From NCBI RefSeq assembly GCF_024347435.1, contig NZ_AP025480.1:186001-250000 (forward strand): a stretch of 64,000 bases of DNA, given 5' to 3'. This stretch comes from Vibrio cyclitrophicus (lineage in GTDB: Bacteria > Pseudomonadota > Gammaproteobacteria > Enterobacterales > Vibrionaceae). The translations under genes were made by a program, and so were the position numbers. Under the pieces are notes generated by a model. The model ran no database searches. It was not told the origin of the DNA and saw only the letters and a program-made list of their open reading frames with translations. Below, in pieces: positions 10,756-33,646 of this stretch. Within the stretch, counting starts at the first letter, position 1. Each line of letters opens with the position of its first letter.

Positions 10756-12705
10756 TTATGCCAGTTCGGCTTTCTCTGCGATGAGCTTATCGACCACACT
10801 TGGATCTGCTAGTGTCGAAGTATCACCTAAGTTCCCCGTGTCGCCAGTGGCAATCTTACGCAAGATACGGCGCATAATTTTGCCTGAACGCGTTTTCGGT
10901 AACGAGTCGGTCCAGTGCAGGACATCGGGTGTTGCGATTGGGCCAATTTCTTTTCGTACCCAGTCTTTCACTTCTTTATGAAGCTCTGCGGTTGGGAACT
11001 CGCCATCATTCAGTGTGATGTAAGCATAAATTGCTTGGCCTTTAATATCATGAGGGATACCCACAATCGCAGCCTCAGCGATCTTATCGAATGCCACTAG
11101 AGCCGATTCAATCTCAGCGGTACCCATACGGTGACCTGATACGTTAAGTACATCATCGACACGACCAGTAATCCAGTAGTAGCCGTCTTCATCACGACGA
11201 GCACCGTCACTGGTGAAGTACATCCCTTTAAAAGTAGAGAAGTAAGTCTGTTCAAAACGGTCATGATCGCCATGAACGGTACGCATTTGACCTGGCCAAG
11301 AGTCCAGAATAACTAGGTTGCCGTCGGTTGCACCCTCAATGATATTACCCATGTTGTCAACCAACGCCGGTTGCACACCGAAGAATGGACGAGTTGCAGA
11401 GCCTGGTTTTAAGTCTGTTGCGCCCGGCAGTGGTGCAATCAAGATACCGCCCGTTTCTGTTTGCCACCATGTATCAACAATTGGCGATTGCTCATCACCG
11501 ATTGTTTTGTAGTACCACTCCCACGCTTCAGGGTTAATAGGTTCACCCACTGACCCCATGATTCGTAAACTGTCACGAGAGGTGCCTTCAACGGCTTCAT
11601 TACCTTTCGCCATTAATGCACGAATCGCGGTTGGCGCAGTATAAAGAATATTGACTTGGTGCTTATCAACCACTTCGCTCATACGACTGGTATTAGGGTA
11701 ATTAGGCACACCTTCGAATAGGATTGTTTTTGCACCATTGGCTAGTGGTCCGTAAACAAGGTATGTGTGACCGGTAATCCAACCCACATCGGCAGTACAC
11801 CAGAAAGTCTCGCCTTCTTGATAGTCGAATACGTATTTGAAGGTCATTGCTGCATAAACAAGGTAGCCACCTGTAGTGTGCATAACGCCTTTAGGTTTAC
11901 CTGTTGAGCCTGACGTATAAAGAATGAATAGTGGATCTTCTGCGTTCATCTCTTCTGGTGGGCAATCTGTAGATACATTAGCAATAGCATCGTGCCACCA
12001 CACATCGCGGTGTTCGTGCCATGCAACATCACCGCCAGTGCGTTTGAATACAACAACCTTCTCGATGTTTTTCACTTCAGGGTTAGTCAGTGCTTCGTCG
12101 ACATTCTTCTTCAGTGGAACCGCACGGCCGCCACGCACGCCTTCATCGGCAGTGATAACGACTTTAGAGTTGGAATCGATAATACGACCGGACAGTGCTT
12201 CTGGTGAGAAACCGCCAAATACCACTGTGTGAACCGCACCGATACGGGTACATGCCAGCATGGCAACTGCAGCTTCTGGAACCATTGGCATGTATAAACA
12301 AACCACATCCCCTTTGCGTACGCCTTGCTCTTTTAAAGCATTAGAAAACAGGCACACTTCTTTGTGCAGTTCGTTGAAGGTTAGGGTTTTATCATCAGTA
12401 GGGTCATCGCCTTCCCAGATGATAGCAACCTCATCACCTCGTTCAGCAAGGTGACGGTCGATACAGTTAGCCGAAACGTTAAGCGTGCCATCTTCAAACC
12501 ATCGAATATCAATGTGGCCAGGGTCGAAAGAAGTATTTTTTACCTGTGTGAAAGGCTTGATCCAATCAACGATTTTTCCGTGTTCACCCCAAAAGCCTTC
12601 AGGGTCAGAAACAGATTGCTGGTACATGGCTAGGTAAGTGTCATTATCCGCGTGTGTGGTTGATTTAATATTTTCTTTTACCGGATAAACGTGGGCTTCA
12701 CTCAT
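10756..12705 (-). CDS. acs: Acetyl-CoA synthetase
   Basis: Acs converts acetate, ATP and CoA to acetyl-CoA through acetyl-AMP, the high-affinity route of the acetate switch. The 649-residue protein shows the adenylate-forming signature [20 protein letters not shown] (about residues 265-284), the [10 protein letters not shown] block, and the C-terminal [14 protein letters not shown], whose Lys is the usual acetylation site that switches activity off. The start ATG has an AAGGAGAG site. The upstream region contains an ACTTTAGGAT element related to the repeats upstream of the symporter pair. CrbS/CrbR control of acs is known in Vibrio cholerae; here it is inferred. Confidence 0.97.
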
Positions 12706-12830
12706 TGCATCTCTCCTTGTGCCTACATTCTAAATGAACTGGCAACTTCCTTTGTGTTCAGTTTTTAAGTCTATTACAGGACTGTCGTTGTGTTATCACT
12801 CTCGGCTAGGACGACGATTTCCACAATTAG

Positions 12831-12840
12831 ACTTTAGGAT
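12831..12840. promoter_or_regulatory. Candidate CrbR half-site upstream of acs
   Basis: ACTTTAGGAT matches the ACTTTAGTCT repeat found at 24584-24593 at 8 of 10 positions and lies about 130 bases before the acs start. A weaker TTTTAAGTCT stretch lies nearer the gene. Assignment to CrbR is inference. Confidence 0.35.
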
Positions 12841-12923
12841 GAGACGCCGCTTTTCACTTACAAAATAGCAAGTTAAGTTCATTTTTGAGATGTTGCTCTC
12901 TATGTGGAAAGCTTGCAGTTGAA

Positions 12924-13556
12924 TTACGAATAAGAAGAGTTGAAGCGGGGCAAGTCGCCGTGCTTAAGGCGGACAAAGATCAGTGCTGCGGAGATAGCGT
13001 CTTGTAATGCATCATGTTTATTGACCGGGATAGGTAAATCGAGCTGGCGACAAATCGCATCCATGCTGAGGTCGAAATAAGCGTTGGGTAGCTGTCTTTC
13101 GAGTTTGTCTTGATAGAGTTGGCTCACTTCGACTAATCGGTTAGGCAGTGGAAATCCAAGCTGTTTTAAACAGGCACGATCGAGGATTTTCTTATCATAA
13201 CGAATGTGATAGCCGACTAAAGGACGATTTCCGATGAAGTTTAGTAGCTCAATCAGGGCTTGTTTTTCTTCTAGACCGTGCTTTAAATCTTGGTGACGAA
13301 TACGGTGAATCTTGATGGAATTGCAATCGAGCGATTGTGGCGCTCGAAGCCTAACTTCAAAAGGCTCACTGGTAATAATTCGATTGCCAATGATTTTTGT
13401 GGCGGCAATGGTGACTAATTCGGCCTGATTGGGGTCGAGGCTGGTGGTTTCACAATCTAAAGATACGTATTCATTATGGGCAGGCGCAACAAACAGAGGC
13501 TGATAAGGGGACCCTTTGAGTTTGTGGTGCCAGAAATAACGAACCAATCTATTCAT
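12924..13556 (-). CDS. DEDDh 3'-5' exonuclease (DnaQ-like)
   Basis: The 210-residue protein has all three exonuclease motifs: SLDCETTSLDP (ExoI, Asp and Glu), GYHIRYDKKILD (ExoII) and HDALQDAISAA (ExoIII with the general-base His and last Asp). It should degrade DNA or RNA ends from the 3' side, but it is too short to be the polymerase III epsilon subunit with its linker, and its substrate is unknown. It starts 12 bases after the cNMP/CBS/DUF294 gene, so the two are co-transcribed, and acs lies just downstream after the acs promoter gap. The constant pairing with an acetate locus hints at a regulatory rather than repair role, which is speculative. Confidence 0.85.
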   Translation of the reverse strand: MNRLVRYFWHHKLKGSPYQPLFVAPAHNEYVSLDCETTSLDPNQAELVTIAATKIIGNRIITSEPFEVRLRAPQSLDCNSIKIHRIRHQDLKHGLEEKQALIELLNFIGNRPLVGYHIRYDKKILDRACLKQLGFPLPNRLVEVSQLYQDKLERQLPNAYFDLSMDAICRQLDLPIPVNKHDALQDAISAALIFVRLKHGDLPRFNSSYS

Positions 13557-13568
13557 CGCTCAATTGCC

Positions 13569-15401
13569 TCAATCTCTTATCTGATAATGATAGCCGAGCC
13601 ATTGCTTGAACTTTTTGACCACATGCAGGCTATGGCGAAGCAGATCTCTATCTGCTCGCTCCATCAATTTAACGTTAATTTTATTGCTGCTGTGCTGTTG
13701 GGATAGTCGCTGAGATAACCGCCACTTAAAGAACTGCTTGAGTGCCTCGTTAAGGTTGTCAGCGGTGCTTTGTTCTAATACATTTTTATTGACGAGCTGT
13801 TCAATACGCTCAAAGGTGTTGTTTACGGTGACTCCATGCTCAAGGCTGAGTGCCCGAATACCATGGACTAGAGGAAAAATACCGCCTCGTTTGATATCGA
13901 GCCCTGACTTGGACTGTTTAACATTGCCAAACAAAGTGAGGGGAACCGAAAAGCTAAGGGCAGGGCGACAAAACTCAGTGAGGATTAACTCCTGTCCCAA
14001 CATCAAATTACTCAGGTGCTGCTTGACCGGTTTTAAAAGTTCTCTGTTACCCGCAACGGCGTGTGCATCCGCCATGATAGCAATATCCATGACGGTTTCT
14101 GGCGTGGCTTTTCTTACCCAACTCGTGAGGGTTTGTTTCCATTCTTGCTGAGAGTGCACCCATTTAGGGTTGTTGACCATTACGTTGCCTGGGCACAGTG
14201 GGTAACCTAATTGTTGCAGAGTGTGGGTGAGCTCGTTCATGGCACTTTGGCATTGATGCCACTCCAAGCCATCTTGAATGATGAGCGCATTATCTTGATC
14301 GGTTTTGAGAATCTGCTCTCCACGGCCTTCTGACCCCAGAACAATTAGACAGCAGTGATTATGCAGCGCGGGTGGAATCGTGAGTTCAAAGGCTTTCTCA
14401 ATTATCTGCTCGTTGACCGCTGAAATGAGCTCCATGATAAAGCGCGTGCGAATGCCATTACCGAGCAGGCTTTCGACCAATTGACGTTGTTTGTTGGAGG
14501 CCATTGCCAATTCTTCAACGCTGGTAGCTCGCGCAATACGTAAAGTGAGAACGTGTGAATGAGTGGAAAACGCACTAAGAATCTGAGTCATGTCCACCAT
14601 ACCAACTGCATTTAAACCATCACAAACCATCAACCTTTTTACGCGATTTCTGGTCATGGTAATCATGGCATTAAACAGGAAGTCACCTTGATTGACATTC
14701 ATCACTGGAAAGGTCGCTATGTCACCAACAGGCGTATCCAGAGGGCGGTTATCTAACATTACAGCATGTAATAAATTGGTTCTTGTGACAATTCCATACG
14801 GTAAGGTACATGATGATCTAAAAGCTTTTTGATCATAATGTTCTAAATGAACCAAGGCCGAGTCCAGCCCTTGTTCTTTAAGGGTTTGAGTGACTTGGTT
14901 GATAGGTTGGTTTGGTTCAAGTATCAGTGGAGGGTGATAGATCGACTCGTCTACTTTGGTCAGTATGAACTCGGCAAGATTCTGTTGCTGTTGAGCGGCT
15001 TCAATTAGCGCTTTTCTTGTCGAAAGGTTGTTATCAAAGTATGCGGCAAACTGGCCATTGGCGTGGTACAGCTCGAGAAAGACATCGGTTGGTAGTAGGT
15101 AGCTTAAAGTATCTTCTAGCGCGATATATTGGTGTTTGGTATGCGCGTCGAATTGGCTGCGGACATCAAAAATATCGTCATTGGCATAGTGAGCATAGAT
15201 CTCACCATCACTGCTTGCCCGCTCTTCGACTGCGCCTTTAATCAGAATATGCAGGTGACGACTTGGTTGGTCAGCTTCCAAAATCACCTCGTGCGCTCGG
15301 TAGTAAACCACATCCAATGACGAACGCAGTGTTAACTGCTCCGTATCGGACAGGCTATCGAAAGGTGGGTGCTGCATATTAAATTTATCAGGCATAAGCA
15401 T
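13569..15401 (-). CDS. cNMP-binding / CBS pair / DUF294 nucleotidyltransferase-like protein
   Basis: A soluble 610-residue protein with three parts. Residues about 15-130 form a cyclic-nucleotide-binding type beta roll (HLHILIKGAVEERAS). Residues about 150-280 form two CBS motifs (ALVHLEHYDQ and GDIATFPVMNVN to RLMVCDG). Residues about 300-600 form the DUF294 region with the nucleotidyltransferase-like motif VLGSEGRGEQILKTDQDNAL, which keeps the GS and DxD-type acidic residues seen in GlnD/GlnE enzymes. It may bind an adenine nucleotide and modify a partner, but no substrate is known. It is co-transcribed with the exonuclease and is divergent from the MFS-crbS genes. The upstream region carries an exact ACTTTAGTCT motif. 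Confidence 0.85.
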   Translation of the reverse strand: MLMPDKFNMQHPPFDSLSDTEQLTLRSSLDVVYYRAHEVILEADQPSRHLHILIKGAVEERASSDGEIYAHYANDDIFDVRSQFDAHTKHQYIALEDTLSYLLPTDVFLELYHANGQFAAYFDNNLSTRKALIEAAQQQQNLAEFILTKVDESIYHPPLILEPNQPINQVTQTLKEQGLDSALVHLEHYDQKAFRSSCTLPYGIVTRTNLLHAVMLDNRPLDTPVGDIATFPVMNVNQGDFLFNAMITMTRNRVKRLMVCDGLNAVGMVDMTQILSAFSTHSHVLTLRIARATSVEELAMASNKQRQLVESLLGNGIRTRFIMELISAVNEQIIEKAFELTIPPALHNHCCLIVLGSEGRGEQILKTDQDNALIIQDGLEWHQCQSAMNELTHTLQQLGYPLCPGNVMVNNPKWVHSQQEWKQTLTSWVRKATPETVMDIAIMADAHAVAGNRELLKPVKQHLSNLMLGQELILTEFCRPALSFSVPLTLFGNVKQSKSGLDIKRGGIFPLVHGIRALSLEHGVTVNNTFERIEQLVNKNVLEQSTADNLNEALKQFFKWRLSQRLSQQHSSNKINVKLMERADRDLLRHSLHVVKKFKQWLGYHYQIRD

Positions 15402-15421: not shown

Positions 15422-15467
15422 ACTTAGTCTGGCAAATTACCAGCGAAGCTCCAGACGACTTTAGTCT
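15422..15467. promoter_or_regulatory. Candidate CrbR sites upstream of the DUF294 gene
   Basis: ACTTAGTCTGG at 15422-15432 and an exact ACTTTAGTCT at 15458-15467 lie 20-66 bases before the DUF294 start, in the 230-base divergent gap with the MFS gene. Both match parts of the inverted repeat at 24584-24614. Shared control is inferred. Confidence 0.4.
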
Positions 15468-15631
15468 AAATGCGAGAATGGGTATCGATGAGAGTGAGAT
15501 ATTTCATTGAAATGCGACATTCAAACTAATTGAATATGGGAATACTATCCCAGTAATAATTCCCTTTTTCATCGTATGCGAGATAGGCATAATTAGTGCT
15601 GCCTTTTTCCGCACATTTTTATAGGTTATTT

Positions 15632-16895: not shown

Positions 16896-16927
16896 AAACC
16901 TCTCCCTTATGGAGAGGTTTTTTTATG
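16896..16927 (+). terminator. Terminator between the MFS gene and crbS
   Basis: AAACCTCTCC CTTAT GGAGAGGTTT followed by a T run to 16924. The T run abuts the first possible ATG of crbS at 16925, which argues for the later start at 16946. Confidence 0.9.
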
Positions 16928-16945
16928 GATGAAAAAGGGTTTTTA

Positions 16946-19900
16946 ATGCAAGGATGGATAGTAATTCCAGTCTCTTTAGCCTACTTGGGTGTGTTATTTC
17001 TGATCGCTTGGTATGGAGACAGGCAGGTTCGTTGGCTATCGAGTTGGCGCCCGTGGATCTATAGCCTCTCAATTGCGGTGTATTGTACTTCGTGGACATT
17101 CTATGGAACGGTCGGGCAGGCCAGCAATAACCCTTGGTCCTTTTTACCCATTTATCTCGCGCCTATTTTGGTATTTACACTTGGGTGGCGGATCTTAGCG
17201 CGGCTGATACTCATTGCGAAACGTGAACATATCACCTCAATTGCTGACTTTATTGCGGCTCGTTATGGCAAATCTCAAGGGCTAGCGGTTGCCGTGACCA
17301 TCATTGCTGTGGTCGGTATTCTTCCTTATATCGCATTACAACTTCGCGGTATTACCATGGGGTTAGATATTGTTGCCCCAAATCTGGCGGCTGATTTCGG
17401 CTATCAAGATTATCACGTGTCTTGGTTTGTGGTTGGTGCTTTGGCTATTTTTACGATGCTGTTTGGTACTCGGCACATCGATAACACAGAGCATCACCGT
17501 GGCATGATGATGGCGGTGGCATTTGAATCCATCGTTAAGCTCGCGGCTTTTTTAATTGTCGGTCTGTTTATTATTTATCTGGCGATGAGTAGCGATAAAA
17601 TCGACCTACTTGATGTTGCAGCCTCCACCTATAAATCACCTAACATTCCGACCTTAATCATTCATACCGTTTTAACCATGCTGGCGATTGTTTGCTTACC
17701 TCGTCAGTTCCATACCATGGTTGTTGAGAACGAGCGCCCACAGGATTTACATACCGCTCGTTGGTTATTCCCGGTTTACCTAATCTTGATGGGGCTGTTT
17801 GTTCTGCCCATTGCTTGGGCGGGTCAGGGGTTACTCACCAACATGCCTGCCGATACTTATGTCATCAGTGTACCAATGGCTGAAGGAGCGAATCACATTG
17901 CCTTGTTAGCCTTTCTTGGCGGTACTTCAGCGGCCAGTGGTATGGTGATTGTTTCGACTATTGCACTAGCGATTATGGTGTCGAACGACTTAGTGATGCC
18001 ATTGCTGCTGCGCCGGATGCGTTTGACTCAAAGAACCCATAAGCATTTTTCTGGCCTGTTATTGGTGATTCGTCGTGGGTTAATTCTACTGCTTTTACTT
18101 GGCGCTTGGGTGTTCTATCAGGCGCTAGATACGATCCATTCTTTGTCGGCGATCGGTTTTCTCTCCTTTGCTGCTATCGCGCAATTTGCACCGGCATTAT
18201 TAGGTGGTTTGTATTGGCGTCCAGGTAATCGCAAAGGTGTCTATGTCGGTTTGTTAGTCGGGTCAGTCGTTTGGCTTATTACCTTGATGAGCCAAACCAG
18301 CATGTTGGCAGGTGATAGCGAAAGCAACCTATTGTTATGGATAATCACGCCACCCGAATTGCTCAGTAGCTGGGATATCAGTAGCTCAAACTGGGGTATT
18401 GTATTGAGTATTACGCTCAATACTTTGTGTTATACCGTGGTGTCAATGACGACCAGACCAAGCCTAAGTGAGCGCTTACAATCAGCGGCATTTGTTGGCA
18501 CTCCGCTGCCTGAAAATGAAAATATAAGCCTCTATCAGAGCCGTGTCACGGTAGCTGAATTGGAGATGTTGGCGTCTCGTTTTGTCGGTCGTAAACGGGC
18601 AAAAAGTGCCTTACACAGTTACTGGCAACAACATGGTCAACCGCTACTTCCGAATCAACAAGCGCCTGCAAGTTTGATTCGACATGCAGAACGCGTGCTT
18701 GCGGGTGTGTTTGGTGCATCTTCAGCTAAGTTAGTACTTACTTCCGCTTTACAAGGCAGAAATATGCAGCTTGAAGAAGTGGCGACCATCGTTGATGAAG
18801 CCTCTGAGCTATATGACTTTAGTCGTGGCTTACTGCAAGGTGCAATCGAGCATATTGGCCAAGGTATTGCGGTGGTAGATAAACAGATGAGGCTGGTGGC
18901 ATGGAATCAGCGCTATTTAGAATTGTTTGAATTTCCTGCGGGGTTGATTCAAGTCGGTCGACCAATCGCTGATGTCATTCGTCATAATGCTGAACAAGGT
19001 TTGTGTGGTCCAGGCGACCCAGAGGATCACGTTCGACGTCGTGTTTATCACCTTGAGCAAGGCACTCGACATACATCTTCTCGTATTCGTCCTGATGGTC
19101 GAGTCATTGAAGTTCAAGGTAACCCGATGCCAAGTGGTGGCTTCGTCATGAGTTTTACTGACATCACGGTATTTAGACAAGCCGAGCAAGCGCTGAAAGA
19201 TGCCAATGAAAGTTTAGAATCAAGAGTCCATGAACGAACCCAAGAGCTCGAAAAACTTAACCATCGCTTAGTAAAAGCAACGCAAATATCTGATCAAGAA
19301 TCACAATCTAAGAGTCGTTTTTTAGCAGCGGTTAGCCATGATTTAATGCAACCACTGAATGCTGCTCGTTTGTTTGCTTCTTCACTCTCTGAAGTGGCAA
19401 AGGAACAAGAGGTGAAGCAGCTTTCATCCCATATCGAAAGTGCACTTGGTGCTGCTGAGGACTTGATTGGTGATTTATTAGATATCTCTCGATTGGAGTC
19501 GGGAAAGTTAGAAACCAATGTTCATGCGATTGCCGTGCATGATGTTCTTATCCATTTGAATGCTGAATTTAGTGCTTTGGCGACACAACAAAAAATCCAG
19601 TTCAAGATGATCCCTTCATCTCTGTTTATTCATTCTGACCCCAAATTGTTAAGGCGTGTTATTCAGAACTTTTTGACCAATGCTTTTCGTTACAACCCGG
19701 AAGGGAAAGTAGTACTGGGTGCGAGACGAGTTAACGGCCAGGTGCGAATTGATGTGTGGGATAACGGAACGGGTATCGACGAAGATAAGCAGCAAGAGAT
19801 CTTTGAAGAGTTTACTCGTGGTAGCCAAGTTCGTGCCGATCAAGGCTTGGGGTTAGGGCTCGCGATTTCTAAAGGCATCGCTCATGTTTTAGGTCACCAA

Positions 19901-20377
19901 ATATCAATGCGATCATGGCCAGGGCAAGGCAGTGTTTTTTCTATCACCTTGGCTAGAGCCGAACACGTTACTCCAATTGTACAAGTTTCAGCGCCAATGG
20001 CGACCAGCGACATCGAACACCTGAAAATATTGTGTGTCGATAATGAGCGCGAGATTTTGGTCGGGATGGAGAACTTGATTGGTCGCTGGGGCTGTGAGGT
20101 TAAGACGGCCGTCGACTTAGTCGAAAGCTTGAAGTGTCTCGATGATGATTGGCATCCGGATGTAATTTTCTCTGATTATCGCCTCGATAATGGCCGAACG
20201 GGGCTGGAAGTTTTGCAACAGTGTCGTTTACGTCTTGGCGACTCTTTTGAAGGTGTCATCATCAGTGCTGATAGAACCGATGACATGTTGGCTGCGATAA
20301 AGGCTAACAGCTTCAGCTTTATTGCTAAGCCAGTGAAACCGCTAAAACTCAGAGCAGTCTTAAATCGGGTGAGTTAA
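16946..20377 (+). CDS. crbS: Hybrid sensor histidine kinase with SSS-transporter domain (CrbS)
   Basis: The start at 16946 (MQGWIVIPVSLAYLGVLFL, 1143 residues) has AAAAAGGG upstream, whereas the ATG at 16925 sits on the T run of a terminator. Domains in order: about 13 membrane helices of the sodium/solute symporter family (1-500), a linker, a PAS domain (about 635-745), a short coiled coil, HisKA with the phospho-acceptor in VSHDLMQPLNAARLF (His near 798), HATPase with NAFRYNPEG, DNGTGI and GLGLGLAIS, and a receiver with SDYRLD and IAKPVKP (about 1025-1140). The CrbS/CrbR pair activates acs in Vibrio cholerae. Which ligand the transporter-like domain sees is unknown. Confidence 0.9.
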   Translation: MQGWIVIPVSLAYLGVLFLIAWYGDRQVRWLSSWRPWIYSLSIAVYCTSWTFYGTVGQASNNPWSFLPIYLAPILVFTLGWRILARLILIAKREHITSIADFIAARYGKSQGLAVAVTIIAVVGILPYIALQLRGITMGLDIVAPNLAADFGYQDYHVSWFVVGALAIFTMLFGTRHIDNTEHHRGMMMAVAFESIVKLAAFLIVGLFIIYLAMSSDKIDLLDVAASTYKSPNIPTLIIHTVLTMLAIVCLPRQFHTMVVENERPQDLHTARWLFPVYLILMGLFVLPIAWAGQGLLTNMPADTYVISVPMAEGANHIALLAFLGGTSAASGMVIVSTIALAIMVSNDLVMPLLLRRMRLTQRTHKHFSGLLLVIRRGLILLLLLGAWVFYQALDTIHSLSAIGFLSFAAIAQFAPALLGGLYWRPGNRKGVYVGLLVGSVVWLITLMSQTSMLAGDSESNLLLWIITPPELLSSWDISSSNWGIVLSITLNTLCYTVVSMTTRPSLSERLQSAAFVGTPLPENENISLYQSRVTVAELEMLASRFVGRKRAKSALHSYWQQHGQPLLPNQQAPASLIRHAERVLAGVFGASSAKLVLTSALQGRNMQLEEVATIVDEASELYDFSRGLLQGAIEHIGQGIAVVDKQMRLVAWNQRYLELFEFPAGLIQVGRPIADVIRHNAEQGLCGPGDPEDHVRRRVYHLEQGTRHTSSRIRPDGRVIEVQGNPMPSGGFVMSFTDITVFRQAEQALKDANESLESRVHERTQELEKLNHRLVKATQISDQESQSKSRFLAAVSHDLMQPLNAARLFASSLSEVAKEQEVKQLSSHIESALGAAEDLIGDLLDISRLESGKLETNVHAIAVHDVLIHLNAEFSALATQQKIQFKMIPSSLFIHSDPKLLRRVIQNFLTNAFRYNPEGKVVLGARRVNGQVRIDVWDNGTGIDEDKQQEIFEEFTRGSQVRADQGLGLGLAISKGIAHVLGHQISMRSWPGQGSVFSITLARAEHVTPIVQVSAPMATSDIEHLKILCVDNEREILVGMENLIGRWGCEVKTAVDLVESLKCLDDDWHPDVIFSDYRLDNGRTGLEVLQQCRLRLGDSFEGVIISADRTDDMLAAIKANSFSFIAKPVKPLKLRAVLNRVS

Positions 20378-22494: not shown

Positions 22495-24198
22495 TTAGTG
22501 GTCGTGAGCTTCACCAGCACCTTTAGGATAACGGATAGACTCAACCATCTCTTGTACATCTTCAGGAACTTCAGCGGTCACTTTGTTCACTGCAATTGAT
22601 ACTACAAAGTTTAGACACATACCTAGCGTACCGATGCCTTCTGGGCTGATACCAAACCACCAGTTTTCCGGTGTGCTTGCTGCTGGGTTAATGAACTTGA
22701 AGTAGATGATGTAGCTTGCTGTGAAGGCAATACCTGACAACATACCTGCAATAGCGCCTTCCTTGTTCATCTTCTTGTAGAAGATACCTAGGATGATGGC
22801 AGGGAAGAAGGATGCTGCGGCTAGGCCGAAGGCAAACGCGACTACCTGTGCTACGAAGCCTGGTGGATTAATACCTAAGTAACCCGCGCCGACAATGGCG
22901 ACCATAGCGGCTAAACGAGCGGCTAATAGCTCCTGCTTGTCGGTCATGTTTGGTCTGAAGCCTTTCTTCAATAAGTCATGTGAAATCGACGTTGAGATGA
23001 CCAATAGTAGACCCGCGGCTGTTGATAGTGCGGCTGCTAGGCCACCAGCTGCAAGTAGTGCGACAACCCAGTTTGGTAGTTTTGCTAGCTCTGGAGAAGT
23101 CAGTACGATGATGTCACGGTTAATCTTCATCTCGTTACGTTCATCGCCCGAGTAGAACATTTTGCCATCGCCGTTCTTATCTTCCCAACCTACAAGGCCA
23201 GTGCTTTCCCAGTTTTTGTACCAGCTTGGTGCGTCTGCTGCTGCGACACCTTGCATGTCTGGGCCGTTAATGGTTTCGATCATGTTTACACGAGCGAATG
23301 CTGCAACGCCAGGTGCTGTTGTGTATAGCAATGAGATGAACAGTAGTGCCCAACCCGCTGAAATACGAGCATCACGTACTCTTGGCACAGTGAAGAAACG
23401 AATGATTACGTGTGGAAGACCTGCTGTACCTACCATTAGAGCCGCACAGATGAAGAATACATCTACCATGCTCTTGTTACCTTCGGTATAGGCGGTAAAC
23501 CCGAGCTCTTCGGTTAGACCATCCAGTTTATCAAGTAGGTAAACGTCGGTGCCAGAGAGAGTTGAACCCATACCAACCTGTGGAAGCGGGTTACCTGTCA
23601 TCATGATCGAAGTAAAAATAGCTGGAACAAGGAAGGCGAAAATGAGGACACAGAATTGAGCTACCTGCGTATAAGTGATGCCTTTCATGCCACCAAGTAC
23701 TGCGTAGAAGAACACAATACCCATACCGATGATGATGCCGAGGTTAATGTCGACTTCTAGGAAACGTGAGAATACAACACCAACCCCACGCATTTGACCA
23801 GCAACGTATGTGAATGATACGAAGATTGCACAGAATACCGCTACCATACGTGCCGTTTTCGAGTAGTAACGTTCGCCGATGAAATCAGGAACCGTAAACT
23901 GACCGAATTTACGTAGATAAGGTGCTAAACATAGTGCAAGCAGTACGTAACCACCTGTCCAACCCATTAGGTAAACTGCACCGTCGTAACCAACAAATGA
24001 GATGATACCTGCCATTGAGATGAATGATGCTGCCGACATCCAGTCAGCCGCTGTCGCCATACCATTGGCTACTGGGTGTACACCGCCGCCGGCTACGTAG
24101 AACTCACTGGTTGACCCTGCACGAGCCCAGATTGCGATGCCGATATATACTGCAAAAGTAATACCGACGAGAATAAACGTCCAAGTTTGAATATCCAT
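22495..24198 (-). CDS. Acetate-type sodium:solute symporter (VC_2705-like subfamily)
   Basis: The 567-residue protein has about 13 membrane helices of the SSS family and the start MDIQTWTFILVGITFAVYIG. It differs from enterobacterial ActP by a large loop (about residues 310-370) that contains an EF-hand-like segment DKNGDGKMFYSG. With the small DUF4212 partner just upstream (10-base gap) it forms the two-gene symporter unit common in marine gammaproteobacteria, usually annotated as cation/acetate symporter. Acetate as substrate is inferred from the CrbS/CrbR-acs context. A perfect ACTTTAGTCT inverted repeat lies upstream of the pair. Confidence 0.85.
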   Translation of the reverse strand: MDIQTWTFILVGITFAVYIGIAIWARAGSTSEFYVAGGGVHPVANGMATAADWMSAASFISMAGIISFVGYDGAVYLMGWTGGYVLLALCLAPYLRKFGQFTVPDFIGERYYSKTARMVAVFCAIFVSFTYVAGQMRGVGVVFSRFLEVDINLGIIIGMGIVFFYAVLGGMKGITYTQVAQFCVLIFAFLVPAIFTSIMMTGNPLPQVGMGSTLSGTDVYLLDKLDGLTEELGFTAYTEGNKSMVDVFFICAALMVGTAGLPHVIIRFFTVPRVRDARISAGWALLFISLLYTTAPGVAAFARVNMIETINGPDMQGVAAADAPSWYKNWESTGLVGWEDKNGDGKMFYSGDERNEMKINRDIIVLTSPELAKLPNWVVALLAAGGLAAALSTAAGLLLVISTSISHDLLKKGFRPNMTDKQELLAARLAAMVAIVGAGYLGINPPGFVAQVVAFAFGLAAASFFPAIILGIFYKKMNKEGAIAGMLSGIAFTASYIIYFKFINPAASTPENWWFGISPEGIGTLGMCLNFVVSIAVNKVTAEVPEDVQEMVESIRYPKGAGEAHDH

Positions 24199-24208
24199 GT
24201 TCTAGCCT

Positions 24209-24475
24209 CTAGTCTTCCTGTACGTTGTATTTTTTGTCGAGCGCATTCATGCGAACAACGTAAATAAATATCAGCGCCACGAAGGTGTATATCGAACCTT
24301 GCTGAGCGAACCAAAAGCCTAGCTTGAACCCGCCAAACTGAACGGTATTGAGGGCATCCACAAATAAGATGCCAGCGCCGTAAGACACTGCAAACCAAAC
24401 CGCGAGCAGTGTTCCCATAATTCCCAAGTTTTCCTTCCAGTAGGCTTGAGCATGTTCCGTAGATTCGAACGCCAT
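24209..24475 (-). CDS. DUF4212 small subunit of the sodium:solute symporter
   Basis: The start at 24475 (MAFESTEHAQAYWKENLGIM, 88 residues) has AAGGAGA 5 bases upstream; the frame open to 24571 adds residues not expected in the family. Two hydrophobic helices (about 21-42 and 55-75) and the end VVRMNALDKKYNVQED match the DUF4212 small-subunit family that accompanies large SSS partners. It likely assists assembly or function of the downstream symporter. First gene of the unit. Confidence 0.88.
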   Translation of the reverse strand: MAFESTEHAQAYWKENLGIMGTLLAVWFAVSYGAGILFVDALNTVQFGGFKLGFWFAQQGSIYTFVALIFIYVVRMNALDKKYNVQED

Positions 24476-24583
24476 TGCCTTCTCCTTTATTCCGTTTTCG
24501 TAGAAACCGTTTTTGTAAAATAGCCGTGTTAACGTAATGTTACGATTTAGAATGTAGCAAGGATAAGTCAAGGGATCTGTGCA

Positions 24584-24614
24584 ACTTTAGTCTGGACGGT
24601 ATTGAGACTAAAGT
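24584..24614. promoter_or_regulatory. Perfect inverted repeat, candidate CrbR operator
   Basis: ACTTTAGTCT (24584-24593), 11-base spacer, AGACTAAAGT (24605-24614). The half-site centres are 21 bases apart, two helical turns, which suits a dimeric LuxR/NarL-type regulator. It lies 109 bases before the DUF4212 start in the 413-base divergent gap (24476-24888). The rest of that gap is AT-rich promoter sequence for the antiporter gene; I see no other gene in it. Confidence 0.55.
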
Positions 24615-24888
24615 GCTGAAATATGGGGGCTAGAGGGCATAACCATAGAAAAGTGTGATGTTGCAATGTTGTTAAATTAGCCAAAGGTCTAACAAAATAG
24701 AGCGAATTAGAGTGCGAGTCATAAAATTTAACAACTAAATCACCGATAAATGGTATTTAGTCCTGCATATGACACGAAGCGAAACATAAGTTTGTTATAG
24801 TATCTAAGGCACTTTCACCGACCGTGCTCTGCTAAACGGCAGAAGATCAACAGGCTTAAAGCTCGGGTTTATTATTTGGGGGAACGAA

Positions 24889-26640
24889 TTGGACGCAATA
24901 ACTATCAACCACTTATTCTTAACTGGTGCTGTACTCATCGCCATCAGTGTACTCTTCTCGCAAGTGTCCTCTCGATTGGGCGTACCTATTCTTTTGATCT
25001 TCCTTTTCGTTGGCATGTTAGCCGGTGAAGATGGTCCCGGTGGCATCAATTTTGATGATTACTCTCTGACATACTTAGTGAGTAACTTGGCTCTTGCCGT
25101 GATCTTGCTAGATGGCGGTATGCGAACTAAGGTGGCGAGTTTCAAGGTTGCTTTTTGGCCATCGCTCTCCCTAGCAACGATAGGCGTGGCATGTACTGCA
25201 ACCTTAACGGGCTTAATGGCCGCATGGCTGTTTGAGCTGTCACTGATGCAGGGGATTTTGGTTGGGGCCATTGTAGGCTCAACCGATGCTGCGGCGGTAT
25301 TCTCTTTACTTAAAGGGCAAAGTCTCAATGAGCGTGTAGGCTCAACCCTAGAGATTGAATCGGGTACCAACGATCCAATGGCCGTCTTCCTTACGGTAAC
25401 CCTAATCGCGCTGTTAGGTAACCCCGAACCTGAAATGGGAATGAATTTCCTACTGAAAAGTTTCGCAATGCAGTTTGGTATCGGCACCCTTGTAGGTATC
25501 GGTGGCGGCTGGGTTTTATGGAGCCTAATCAATCGAGTTAAGTTGGCTGATGGTCTCTACTCTATTTTGGTGCTGAGTGGTGGCGTAGCGCTGTTTGCGT
25601 TCTCCAACATGCTTGGCGGCAGCGGTATTTTATCTATTTACTTAGTGGGCTTGTTCATCGGAAATCGTCCGACTCGCTCTCGACACTCTATTCTCAATGT
25701 TCTTGATGGCATGACGTGGCTTAGCCAAATCGTGATGTTCTTAGTGTTAGGTTTGTTGGTGACACCATCGACACTAATGGACATTGCGATACCGGCGCTT
25801 GCGCTTGCTTTCGGTATGATTTTGTTTGCTCGTCCAATCTCTGTTTGGCTCGGTTTATTGCCGTTTCGACGTTTTACCACCAAAGAGCGCTGGTTTGTTT
25901 CTTGGGTGGGTTTACGCGGTGCAGTGCCGATCATCTTGGCGGTTTTCCCGATGATGGCAGGCCTGCAAAATGCTCAGTTGTATTTCAATATTGCCTTCTT
26001 CGTGGTTATGGTTTCGCTGATTGTTCAGGGCGGCAGCTTAATGAAAGTCGCTAGACTCGCGAAAGTGACCTTACCGCCAACGCCGACACCGATTTCTCGT
26101 ACCGGCATTGAGATCTACCCTACCAGTGAGTGGGAGATGTTTGTCTATAAGTTGAAAGAGGACAAGTGGTGTATTGGCGAACCGCTTAAACGCTTGTCTA
26201 TGCCTGAAGGGACGCGAATTACCGCGTTATTTAGAAAAGATGCTTTGCTCCACCCATCGGGCAGTACCGTGTTAGAGGCGAATGATATCTTATGTGTACT
26301 TGGGCAAGATAAAGACCTAGATAGCTTAAGCGAACTGTTCAGTGAGGCTCCTTTGGCTGAAGATACCGCTCGATTCTTTGGCGACTTCTTCTTAGATGTT
26401 GGGCTATCGGTCGCTGCCGTCAGTGATTGTTATGGTATAGAGTTGGGTTCCGAGCAGGAGCGAGAAATGACGCTAAAACAATTGGTTGTTCAAGAGCTTG
26501 GTGCACACCCTGTATTGGGCGATAACTTCAAGTGGAATGGCATTAATTGGGTGGTGGCAGAGATAAATGATTATAAAGTCGTCAAGTTGGGTTTATGTTT
26601 GCCCAAGACGACTTTAGGAAAGGATATTGACGAAGTTTAA
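24889..26640 (+). CDS. nhaP2: NhaP2/CvrA-type potassium/proton antiporter
   Basis: The 583-residue protein starts at a TTG (24889) with GGGGGAA 5 bases upstream. It has 12-13 membrane helices of the CPA1 family, with the ion-site region [13 protein letters not shown] and [11 protein letters not shown] (Asp pair typical of this group), then a soluble part with a TrkA-C-like domain (about 400-490). The Vibrio cholerae homologue exchanges potassium for protons and protects at low pH with high potassium. It ends 4 bases into crbR on the other strand, a tail-to-tail overlap. Confidence 0.88.
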
Positions 26641-27275
26641 TTGTGGACTTCTTGTAGCAAGATAACTGCTTGAGTTCGGTTTTTCACATCCAATTTACGG
26701 AAGATGGCTGTCATATGTGCTTTGATGGTCGCTTCCGAAACATTTAGTTCATACGCGATTTGCTTGTTAAGTAAGCCGTCAGAAAGCATCCCCAATACTT
26801 TGTATTGCTGAGGTGTCAGTGTGGAAATCTTTTCTGCAAGGTCGGTGCAGGCAGCATTATTGGTGATCAGTCCTTCAGGGAAGAACGGGTCGCCATTGAG
26901 CACTTGATTGAGTGCACTCACTAATTCGCGCATATCACTCGATTTTGGAATAAAGCCAAAAGCACCATGACTCTTCACTTGGCTGACGACGCTCGCTTCT
27001 TCACTGGCTGAAATCACGACTATAGGTAAGTCGGGGTATTCTGCGCGCAGTTGAATCAAGCCTGACATCCCATTCGCACCGGGCATTTTAAGGTCGAGAA
27101 GCAACAGATCGGGTTCATCTTCTTTTTTTAGTAGAGTCAGTAAGGCATCGAGAGAATCAGCCTCAAGCAGGTTCGCACCACTGATCGCCATATGAACTGA
27201 CTGAAATAGGGCGTTGCGAAAAAGAGGGTGGTCATCAGCAATGATGATGGTATAGGTCGAGTCCATGACGTTCAT
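26637..27275 (-). CDS. crbR: LuxR/NarL-type response regulator CrbR
   Basis: The 212-residue regulator has an N-terminal receiver ([25 protein letters not shown] with the phospho-Asp near residue 59, and KSS at about 115) and a C-terminal LuxR helix-turn-helix ([25 protein letters not shown], seen in parts over residues 153-205). Its place beside the antiporter, the DUF4212/SSS pair and dsbD matches the crbR locus in Vibrio cholerae. CrbS (16946) is 6 kb away, so the kinase and regulator are in separate transcripts. Two ATGs (27275, 27266) compete; neither has a clear ribosome site. Confidence 0.85.
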
Positions 27276-32103: not shown

Positions 32104-33646
32104 GTAACTATTCACCCGCGAGCTATTGACGTCGGTTTATGCTAAGAATACTGGCGTCTGATAGTCCTCTTTAAGCATATGGTGCTCGACGATTTTACGT
32201 AGCCACTTATAAGCTGAGATTTTCTGAAGCTTGGCGGTTTCTATCAGTGAGAACATTCGCTCACGGAACAGATCTCCTCGATATGAGCGAGTCACGTAAC
32301 AGCACTTTCTCATCAATATATAATTACGCAGGACTCGCTCTGCAGCGTTGTTTGTTAACGGGCACTCGGAGTCATCCATAAAACGCCAGACCATAGTGTC
32401 ATCAGCGATGAGGTTTCGACATCTACCTCGATATCGTTTTGAGCATTGATAACTGCCCAATTTGAGCCAATGAAGCCAACTCTTTCGTAACCGCCGGAGT
32501 CGGCGGTAATACTGGCTTTCGGTAACTTTTCCTTCGATATACCGGTGGTGACACCTGAATACGCTATGAGCGATTAAAGCGAGTTTTTCTCCGATTTTTT
32601 GGTTTTCAGGACAAACGCTCTCCTCGATTGCAATGACGTTCCTTAATATGTGAGCCCAGCATAATTGCCGCTTAGATTCGTCGATATATTTGTAGGCAGA
32701 ATATTGGTCCGTCACTAAAAGGTGTAAAACCGCTTCACCAAGTAGTCGTTTGGCTGCATGTTGGCTTCTTCCGCTGTTAATTTGGAAAAAGGCGACATCA
32801 TTGCTTAGTGCGGCCCACATCCAGCTTTTATCCTTATTGCGCTGATGCGAAGTCTCATCAGCCATAATCAGTTTAGATGCTTTGACTGTTTCATGGATTT
32901 GAGCATGCGTATCGGCTAAGTATTCCGTGACTCGCCCTTGTGCCGCTGATATTGCACCAGTTGAGAAGTTAAGTTGGAAGACGTCTTTCAACATAGATTG
33001 TATTTTACCTATGCTTTGGTGGTGCTGGGTTGCTTGGATTCCGATAAAGCTATGTAGATTTGGCCCCATTTGAACATCAGGCACATACTCTGGAAGCTCC
33101 GCTTGATGCTTATCACCACACCATGAGCACTCGCCTTTAAAGACTTGATGCTCAATAAGTGTGTACGAAATATCAGGCAAATCGAAGATTTGATGTCGTT
33201 TGTAGGGATGTCGATTTGGAACAACACAGCCACCGCAATGGCATGTCTTGTTTGGTAAGTATTGCTCAACCGAGGCACTGTCTTCAACGGGGTGAAGCAG
33301 TCGGCGATGGCCTTTATGACCTGGTTGAGCTCCTTGCTTTTTTCCTGATTTCTTCCGATTAGGTGAAGTATTCTTAGCTTTATTATGCAAAGGCTGCTGT
33401 GATGATGGCACAGAAGAGTTTCGACTATTTTGATTTAGTCGGTCTTCAAGTTCAGCCAACTTATTCCATAAAAAATGGATGATATCTTTCGCTTCTTCAG
33501 GCGAATCGAAATCTGGCGGAGGTGGTAATGTTTTCTTATTCATACCTCCAGGTTGCCACCGAAAAAAGATCACTCAAGTTGAATGTGGGATCAAGTTAAC
33601 CCGGTCACATAACTTTAGTGTCAAGGCCTCGCGGGTGAATAGTTAC
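32104..33646 (-). mobile_element. IS66-family insertion sequence, apparently intact
   Basis: A 1543-base element bounded by 27-bp inverted repeats, GTAACTATTCACCCGCGAG plus eight bases at 32104-32130 and its complement at 33620-33646 (24 of 27 match). It is flanked by a perfect 8-bp target duplication, ATAACTTC at 32096-32103 and 33647-33654, as expected for IS66. It carries only the transposase gene, without tnpA/tnpB accessory frames. It separates the terminator of the arc operon from the pyrBI promoter, about 116 bases upstream of the -35 box, and disrupts no gene. Confidence 0.95.
32137..33543 (-). CDS. IS66-family transposase
   Basis: A DDE transposase of 468 residues from the ATG at 33543 (GGAGG lies almost directly before it; 478 residues from 33573). 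The N-terminal leucine-zipper-like segment (FLWNKLAELEDRLNQNSRNSS) and basic KKQGAQPGHKGHRR are typical, then a zinc-finger-like CHCGG...CSWCG, the catalytic domain with MADETSHQ and TDQYSAYKYI (two Asp) and NNAAERVLRN (Glu), and a C-terminal domain. The frame is uninterrupted, so the enzyme could be active. Confidence 0.93.
   Translation of the reverse strand: MNKKTLPPPPDFDSPEEAKDIIHFLWNKLAELEDRLNQNSRNSSVPSSQQPLHNKAKNTSPNRKKSGKKQGAQPGHKGHRRLLHPVEDSASVEQYLPNKTCHCGGCVVPNRHPYKRHQIFDLPDISYTLIEHQVFKGECSWCGDKHQAELPEYVPDVQMGPNLHSFIGIQATQHHQSIGKIQSMLKDVFQLNFSTGAISAAQGRVTEYLADTHAQIHETVKASKLIMADETSHQRNKDKSWMWAALSNDVAFFQINSGRSQHAAKRLLGEAVLHLLVTDQYSAYKYIDESKRQLCWAHILRNVIAIEESVCPENQKIGEKLALIAHSVFRCHHRYIEGKVTESQYYRRLRRLRKSWLHWLKLGSYQCSKRYRGRCRNLIADDTMVWRFMDDSECPLTNNAAERVLRNYILMRKCCYVTRSYRGDLFRERMFSLIETAKLQKISAYKWLRKIVEHHMLKEDYQTPVFLA

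Follow-up and report, generated by a model that had tools for sequence, protein, structure and literature searches.

Regulation of acetate use by the two-component system CrbS/CrbR has been described in Pseudomonas fluorescens, where the portions of Sepulveda & Lupas 2017 (PMC5715377) drawn on here show that activation of acs by CrbR requires ACTU, a 17-bp imperfect inverted repeat built around GAC(Y)NN(R)GTC and exemplified in their Table 4 by TACGACTAAAGTCTAAA. The same dependence on ACTU is found in E. coli (section 16), the motif at P. fluorescens acs was mapped to -52 to -36, just upstream of the -35 element, and Table 3 lists ACTU as positive at acs, actP and the DUF294 gene pflu5625 in five species listed as Vibrio. 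In the MxtR/ErdR system of P. putida, ErdR binds the pp_0354, scpC and yjcH/actP-I promoters by EMSA (PMC8402216); the phrase 'ACTU motif' occurs in both papers. A comparable architecture is known for NarL, whose operators pair 7-bp elements in inverted orientation with 2 bp between them (7-2-7), as in the tandem sites of E. coli ogt centred at -44.5 and -77.5 (PMC7419079).

The window (the whole 64-kb stretch of DNA analysed) lies in a genome that encodes both components of this system, judged from domain matches and a below-threshold match to an ErdR model. The hybrid histidine kinase gene at 16925..20377 (+ strand) has Pfam kinase and receiver domains and a fitting place in the locus, and its name, crbS, is taken from the original prediction and PMC5715377. 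The NarL/LuxR-type response regulator gene crbR (26637..27275, - strand) has Response_reg and GerE domains; its product scores 247.5 bits against ErdR model NF041830, under the cut-off of 390, and its nearest solved chain is NarL 1a04. The genes whose promoters concern us all lie on the - strand: acs, for acetyl-CoA synthetase (10756..12705); a DUF294 nucleotidyltransferase gene with cNMP and CBS domains (13569..15401), with an RNase_T exonuclease as the second gene of its unit (12924..13556), all three assigned by Pfam; and the DUF4212 small symporter subunit (24209..24475; PF13937, TIGR03647) with an actP-like symporter of the VC_2705 family (22495..24198; TIGR03648, 865.6 bits). At the place of the symporter/DUF4212 pair (window 22495-24475), the 80 related loci (L001-L080) carry two versions, one with ~90% or more and the other with ~60% identity to that of the window, and the two differ in the bases directly after the ACTU core. 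An IS66-family transposase is located at 32137-33573.

The original prediction held that a decamer shared by the upstream regions of acs, DUF294 and DUF4212/actP marks the targets of CrbS/CrbR, and this claim stands, both in its match to the published ACTU and in conservation across Vibrionaceae. By comparison of the sequences, the decamer, read on the opposite strand, is the ACTU core (PMC5715377), with the same GACTAAAGTC-type core and the same targets. Because ACTU at acs, actP and DUF294 was described in that paper, neither the motif nor any of its three targets here is new. The ACTU inverted-repeat pattern is present upstream of acs at 12827-12842 (TCATCCTAAAGTCTAA, - strand), upstream of DUF294 at 15454-15469 (TTAGACTAAAGTCGTC, - strand) and, as a distal actP site, at 24677-24692 (TTAGCCAAAGGTCTAA, + strand); the proximal actP site, a degenerate GACTAAAGTTG, occupies 24580..24595 (- strand) as a 7-2-7 element with core GACTAAAGTT.

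The individual matches reported earlier are present as letters. The perfect inverted repeat ACTTTAGTCT-N11-AGACTAAAGT occupies exactly 24584-24614, and 109 bp separate it from the likely DUF4212 start codon (24473-24475) downstream of it; its gene-proximal arm is the core of the proximal actP site; an exact decamer copy lies at 15458-15467 and an 8/10 match at 12831-12840 upstream of acs. The letters of TTAGTCTGG at 15424-15432 are likewise there, but they are not a further ACTU copy: TTAGTCTGG is the complement of CCAGACTAA and falls on the opposite strand of a conserved -10-like TTTGn-CAnACT downstream of the DUF294 ACTU, and is predicted to be the -10 region of that promoter. In number, such matches are at chance level. 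The window holds 5 decamer matches with at most one mismatch against 4.75 expected, exact decamers in the 5.28-Mb genome number 11, compared with 16 for the reversed control, and the ACTU core occurs 413 times genome-wide against 658 for its control, so there is no enrichment. The refuting test that came with the original prediction thus has a split outcome: chance frequency in the genome, yet conservation next to the orthologous genes. Decamer and core counts, which in both window and genome match or fall short of control, were rejected as sole support.

Conservation upstream of the orthologous genes, unlike number, supports the matches. From 80 CrbS-anchored Vibrionaceae loci and the window we assembled the sequences upstream of acs (77), DUF294 (75) and DUF4212 (62), dropping from each set loci without the gene, without its start or with too little upstream DNA. 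With the window counted, the exact core [AC]C[CT]AAAGT[CT] is present in 76/77 acs, 75/75 DUF294 and 60/62 DUF4212 upstreams, against means of 1.75, 1.2 and 2.1, respectively, in shuffled upstreams, and in only 2 of 294 control upstreams from the same loci (crbS, crbR, the exonuclease gene, a 130-aa gene and actP). At all three genes the conserved core is always on the strand reading towards the gene. Gene-specific anchors match every acs (77/77), DUF294 (75/75) and DUF4212 (62/62) upstream with at most one mismatch, counts that are not independent, the anchors having been derived from those very alignments and the loci being related. With few exceptions the gene-specific versions are CTAAAGTCTAATTG at acs (in all distinct rows of the alignment), GAC[TC]AAAGTCGTCT at DUF294 and GACTAAAGTTG[CA]A at DUF4212. 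The presence, conservation and orientation of these sites are direct observations. Autoregulation of CrbS/CrbR by way of the core was considered and rejected, the core being nearly absent upstream of crbR (0/59) and crbS (1/79).

Placement relative to the putative promoters is similar at the three genes. A -10-like hexamer starts 31 bp from the ACTU centre at actP (TACATT, 24551..24556, - strand, with an extended TGC at 24557-24559; conserved as TGC-TAnnnT), 31 bp at acs (GAGAGT, 12798..12803, - strand; conserved as gAnAGT) and 30 bp at DUF294 (CAGACT, 15426..15431, - strand, inside TTAGTCTGG; conserved as CAnACT), the hexamers of acs and DUF294 being poor matches to consensus. These distances place the predicted ACTU centre close to -43 at all three genes, with centres near -43.5 and -42.5 as counted from the putative -10 elements. 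This predicted position agrees with the mapped interval of the P. fluorescens acs motif (-52 to -36), just upstream of -35 (PMC5715377), and with the NarL site at -44.5 of E. coli ogt (PMC7419079).

The inverted repeat that drew attention to the locus behaves differently from the site that it overlaps. Among 329 Vibrionaceae genomes, the present one alone has the exact N11 repeat. Its gene-proximal arm, GAC[TC]AAAGT, is exact in 62/62 loci, whereas the place of the distal arm (24605..24614, - strand) has 3 to 8 mismatches per ten bases in 61 relatives, 3 or 4 of them in the nearest, and several Splendidus-clade relatives carry ACATTAGCGC there. Either arm alone approximates a whole palindrome GACTNNAGTC, of a type consistent with a NarL dimer site of 7-2-7 form (PMC7419079), and the 7-2-7 centres of the two arms are 23 bp apart. 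Judged across the family, the N11 perfect inverted repeat is a private feature, not a conserved operator. Conservation of a near-repeat with at most 3 mismatches was also rejected: it is found in 10 of 61 genomes including our own, the other nine only at 3 mismatches, against 14 of 61 for the reversed control. Perfect 10-bp repeats with short gaps number 18 in the window (terminators possibly among them), compared with 0-2 in each of five resamples, so that the private arm may have been gained recently and be functional. One could go further and regard it as a third CrbR site, newly acquired, with an effect on actP expression in this strain, in keeping with its exact ACTU core where the closest relatives differ and with the rarity of such repeats in resampled sequence; the arm is absent from every other one of the 329 genomes and is oriented opposite to the conserved promoter-proximal sites, and we regard this as unlikely, at a minor but real share of the probability.

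The distal actP site, which the original prediction overlooked, is conserved to a degree that the private arm is not. The best upstream palindrome matches at least 11/14 positions in 62/62 loci and at least 12/14 in 55/62, compared with 89/1240 and 8/1240 shuffled upstreams; the 11/14 threshold is soft, since shuffles reach it in several per cent of cases (82/900 in the cobB and htpX test described below). The distance between distal and proximal centres is 97 bp in 40 loci, 96 in 12, 95 in 5, 94 in 3 and 98 in 1, so that 61 of 62 loci fall within 94-98 bp; the exception, L062, has 86 bp, about one turn less. This directly observed spacing has a standard deviation of 1.6 bp, against 13.7 bp for the distance from the proximal site to the ATG, and in the 40 loci with 97 bp the spacer is on average 53% identical whereas the sites are 90-95% identical.

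The distal site lies between actP and a divergent Na+/H+ antiporter gene at 24889, with its better half towards the latter, and a palindrome of at least 12/14 is present in 21/24 antiporter upstreams, which are the same intergenic DNA. It could thus serve the antiporter, instead of actP or as well. However, among nine loci whose neighbours were compared, the spacing to the proximal site is kept beside the divergent antiporter, beside a 207-208 aa gene in actP direction (L022, L052, L066) and beside crbR (L076, L079), and antiporter matches occur in 24/80 loci against 62/62 for the distal site. Because the spacing holds whatever the neighbour gene, the distal site most likely belongs to actP, and a role at the antiporter, exclusive or shared, seems improbable to us.

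We found no comparable second site at fixed spacing in the acs or DUF294 upstreams. Outside Vibrionaceae, 24 families of the order were sampled with one genome apiece, and 12 of these genomes have DUF4212. A palindrome of at least 11/14 (the weaker matches being soft) is present upstream of the gene in 9 of the 12; two of these nine (L236, L238) have a second palindrome, at 228 and 116 bp, and none of the 12 has the 97-bp pair, which on this small sample looks particular to Vibrionaceae. The portion of PMC5715377 drawn on here describes no such second site at actP. The ogt promoter resembles actP in having a second, farther-upstream NarL site, but that site is at -77.5 (PMC7419079), whereas the actP site lies ~97 bp beyond the proximal one. 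Four of the loci were searched against Rfam without a match. TTAAC-type repeats ~11 bp apart occur at window ~24654-24676, beside the distal actP site, where they are clearer in relatives, and at 24527-24545, downstream of the -10; they may be ArcA-like boxes.

Taken together, we are highly confident in identifying the shared sequence as CrbR's ACTU operator, with sites near -43, a two-site actP promoter and an N11 repeat private to this genome. Each site would be a 7-2-7 imperfect palindrome, approximately TTAGACYNNRGTCTAA, bound by one CrbR dimer. The site near -43 at acs, DUF294 and DUF4212/actP would abut the -35 region, and phosphorylated CrbR, on signals from CrbS, would recruit RNA polymerase. 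The strong upstream actP site ~97 bp away probably binds a second CrbR dimer, which probably cooperates with the weaker proximal site by looping or by contacts with RNA polymerase. We infer CrbR binding in this organism, the -10 positions and the cooperation from sequence; CrbR dependence of the motif was established by others in Pseudomonas (PMC5715377).

GerE-type regulators share site shapes, and with binding by CrbR predicted here from sequence, the motif might instead be that of a different NarL-type regulator whose site is similar, CrbR acting indirectly. Such a regulator has a very slight chance of being the true one, given that CrbR activation of acs needs ACTU in both P. fluorescens and E. 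coli (PMC5715377) and that purified ErdR shifts the pp_0354, scpC and yjcH promoters of P. putida (PMC8402216). Hardly any weight is left for the proposal, made in the original prediction, of one NarL/LuxR dimer using both arms of the N11 repeat as half-sites 21 bases apart: the repeat is perfect, precisely placed and of a kind rare in resampled sequence, but conservation of both arms with their spacing, which such an operator requires, failed in all but one of 329 genomes and at the second arm's place in 61/61 relatives, acs and DUF294 have no fixed-spacing partner of this kind, and a single decamer already matches nearly the whole ACTU core and is a nearly complete 7-2-7 site. The earlier observation as a whole is partly confirmed, and its interpretation partly supported.

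A profile built from the acs, DUF294 and actP sites gave 11 matches in the whole genome, with DUF294 ranked first, actP fourth and acs joint fifth. Because its E-values are weak (best 0.116), the predicted regulon rests on conservation and not on those values. The third match is the genome's only perfect TTAGACTWWAGTCTAA (C1:2898981-2898996), ~247 bp upstream of a 43-codon frame (C1:2898621-2898749, - strand) for a hydrophobic protein of 43 residues, probably a membrane protein. Of 61 Vibrio genomes, 34 gave a match to the frame and 27 did not; a palindrome of at least 12/14 precedes it in 29/30 returned loci (the miss being L143), against 16/6000 shuffled sequences, and among the matches listed, 21 of 22 perfect sites in the 61 genomes are upstream of this frame. 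Over pairs of 30 sequences, differences within the frame are 7543 synonymous against 1993 non-synonymous, and a terminator-like hairpin follows its stop. The protein has no NCBIfam or Rfam match, 25 homologues have no precomputed Pfam domain, and named homologues, that of V. cholerae included, carry hypothetical, uncharacterised or unknown-function labels.

Similar sites precede cobB and a gene presumed from its sequence to be htpX. A palindrome of at least 12/14 lies 76-94 bp upstream of cobB in 29 of the 30 loci returned (L172-L201; L174 scores 14/14, and the sole miss, L186, 10/14) and 166-353 bp upstream of htpX in 24/30 (L202-L231), against 6/900 shuffled sequences in each case, counts that overstate independence, both genes having been picked because of such sites in some genomes. 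The cobB gene of the present genome (C1:1652033-1652833), outside those 30, also has the palindrome (C1:1652818-1652833). The htpX-associated palindrome (C1:2167112-2167127 in our genome) has no conserved promoter behind it. At cobB and the small-protein gene a hexamer starts ~41 and ~43 bp, respectively, from the ACTU centre, roughly one helical turn further than at the three known targets. On this basis cobB and the 43-residue protein gene are predicted to be further CrbR targets.

CobB activates Acs by deacetylation, and a joint downward trend, not significant in every case, is reported for crbRS, the symporter, acs and cobB in a stationary-phase V. cholerae csrA mutant; the portion of that study drawn on here does not report CrbR control of cobB (PMC7858070). 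The words cobB and deacetylase are absent from the main text of PMC5715377, and a search of literature on cobB with CrbR, ErdR or the Vibrio acetate switch, subscription papers being outside its coverage, found no such control. As far as the searched literature shows, novelty thus lies in the paired sites of the actP promoter and in the predicted links to cobB and to the small protein. The actP target is shared with P. putida, but the portion of PMC8402216 drawn on here gives no ACTU motif or binding at acsA-I, whereas here the site is present in all 77 acs upstreams examined.

We give an about even chance to a broader reading, in which CrbR would act as a Vibrio feed-forward acetate switch over acs, uptake through the two-site ~97-bp actP promoter, cobB, whose product would deacetylate and thereby activate Acs, and the 43-residue membrane protein. 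If this is true, a regulator that induces both Acs and its activating enzyme would couple control of the acetate switch by transcription to its control by acetylation. The analysis fixes what is most likely the CrbR site in Vibrio and its places, with testable 16-bp sites replacing a misleading inverted repeat. The fixed 97-bp pair would make a simple model of how a NarL-type regulator activates over a long range, and acetate use is a condition in which to seek the function of the 43-residue protein.

Other matches in the genome recur less widely. The site before a formate/nitrite transporter gene (C1:2140502-2140518, L087) was not counted as a conserved target: a 12/14 palindrome is found in 1/30 loci, the core is retained mainly in the closest relatives (L092-L099), and locus L113 scores 8/14. 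A profile match in front of a SnoaL gene (C2:1212633) is shared by two relatives (L160, L161), and further matches are those at an acyltransferase gene (C1:112736) and those of L088-L091. One-mismatch ACTU palindromes occur in a few genomes (L163, L165, L166, L168, L169) near a gene of ~97-102 codons beside a presumed cobT-like gene and near a presumed alcohol-dehydrogenase-like gene, the names being suggested by the first residues. Finally, ACTAAAGTC is present in our own genome as three copies at 14-bp steps (C1:917239-917275).
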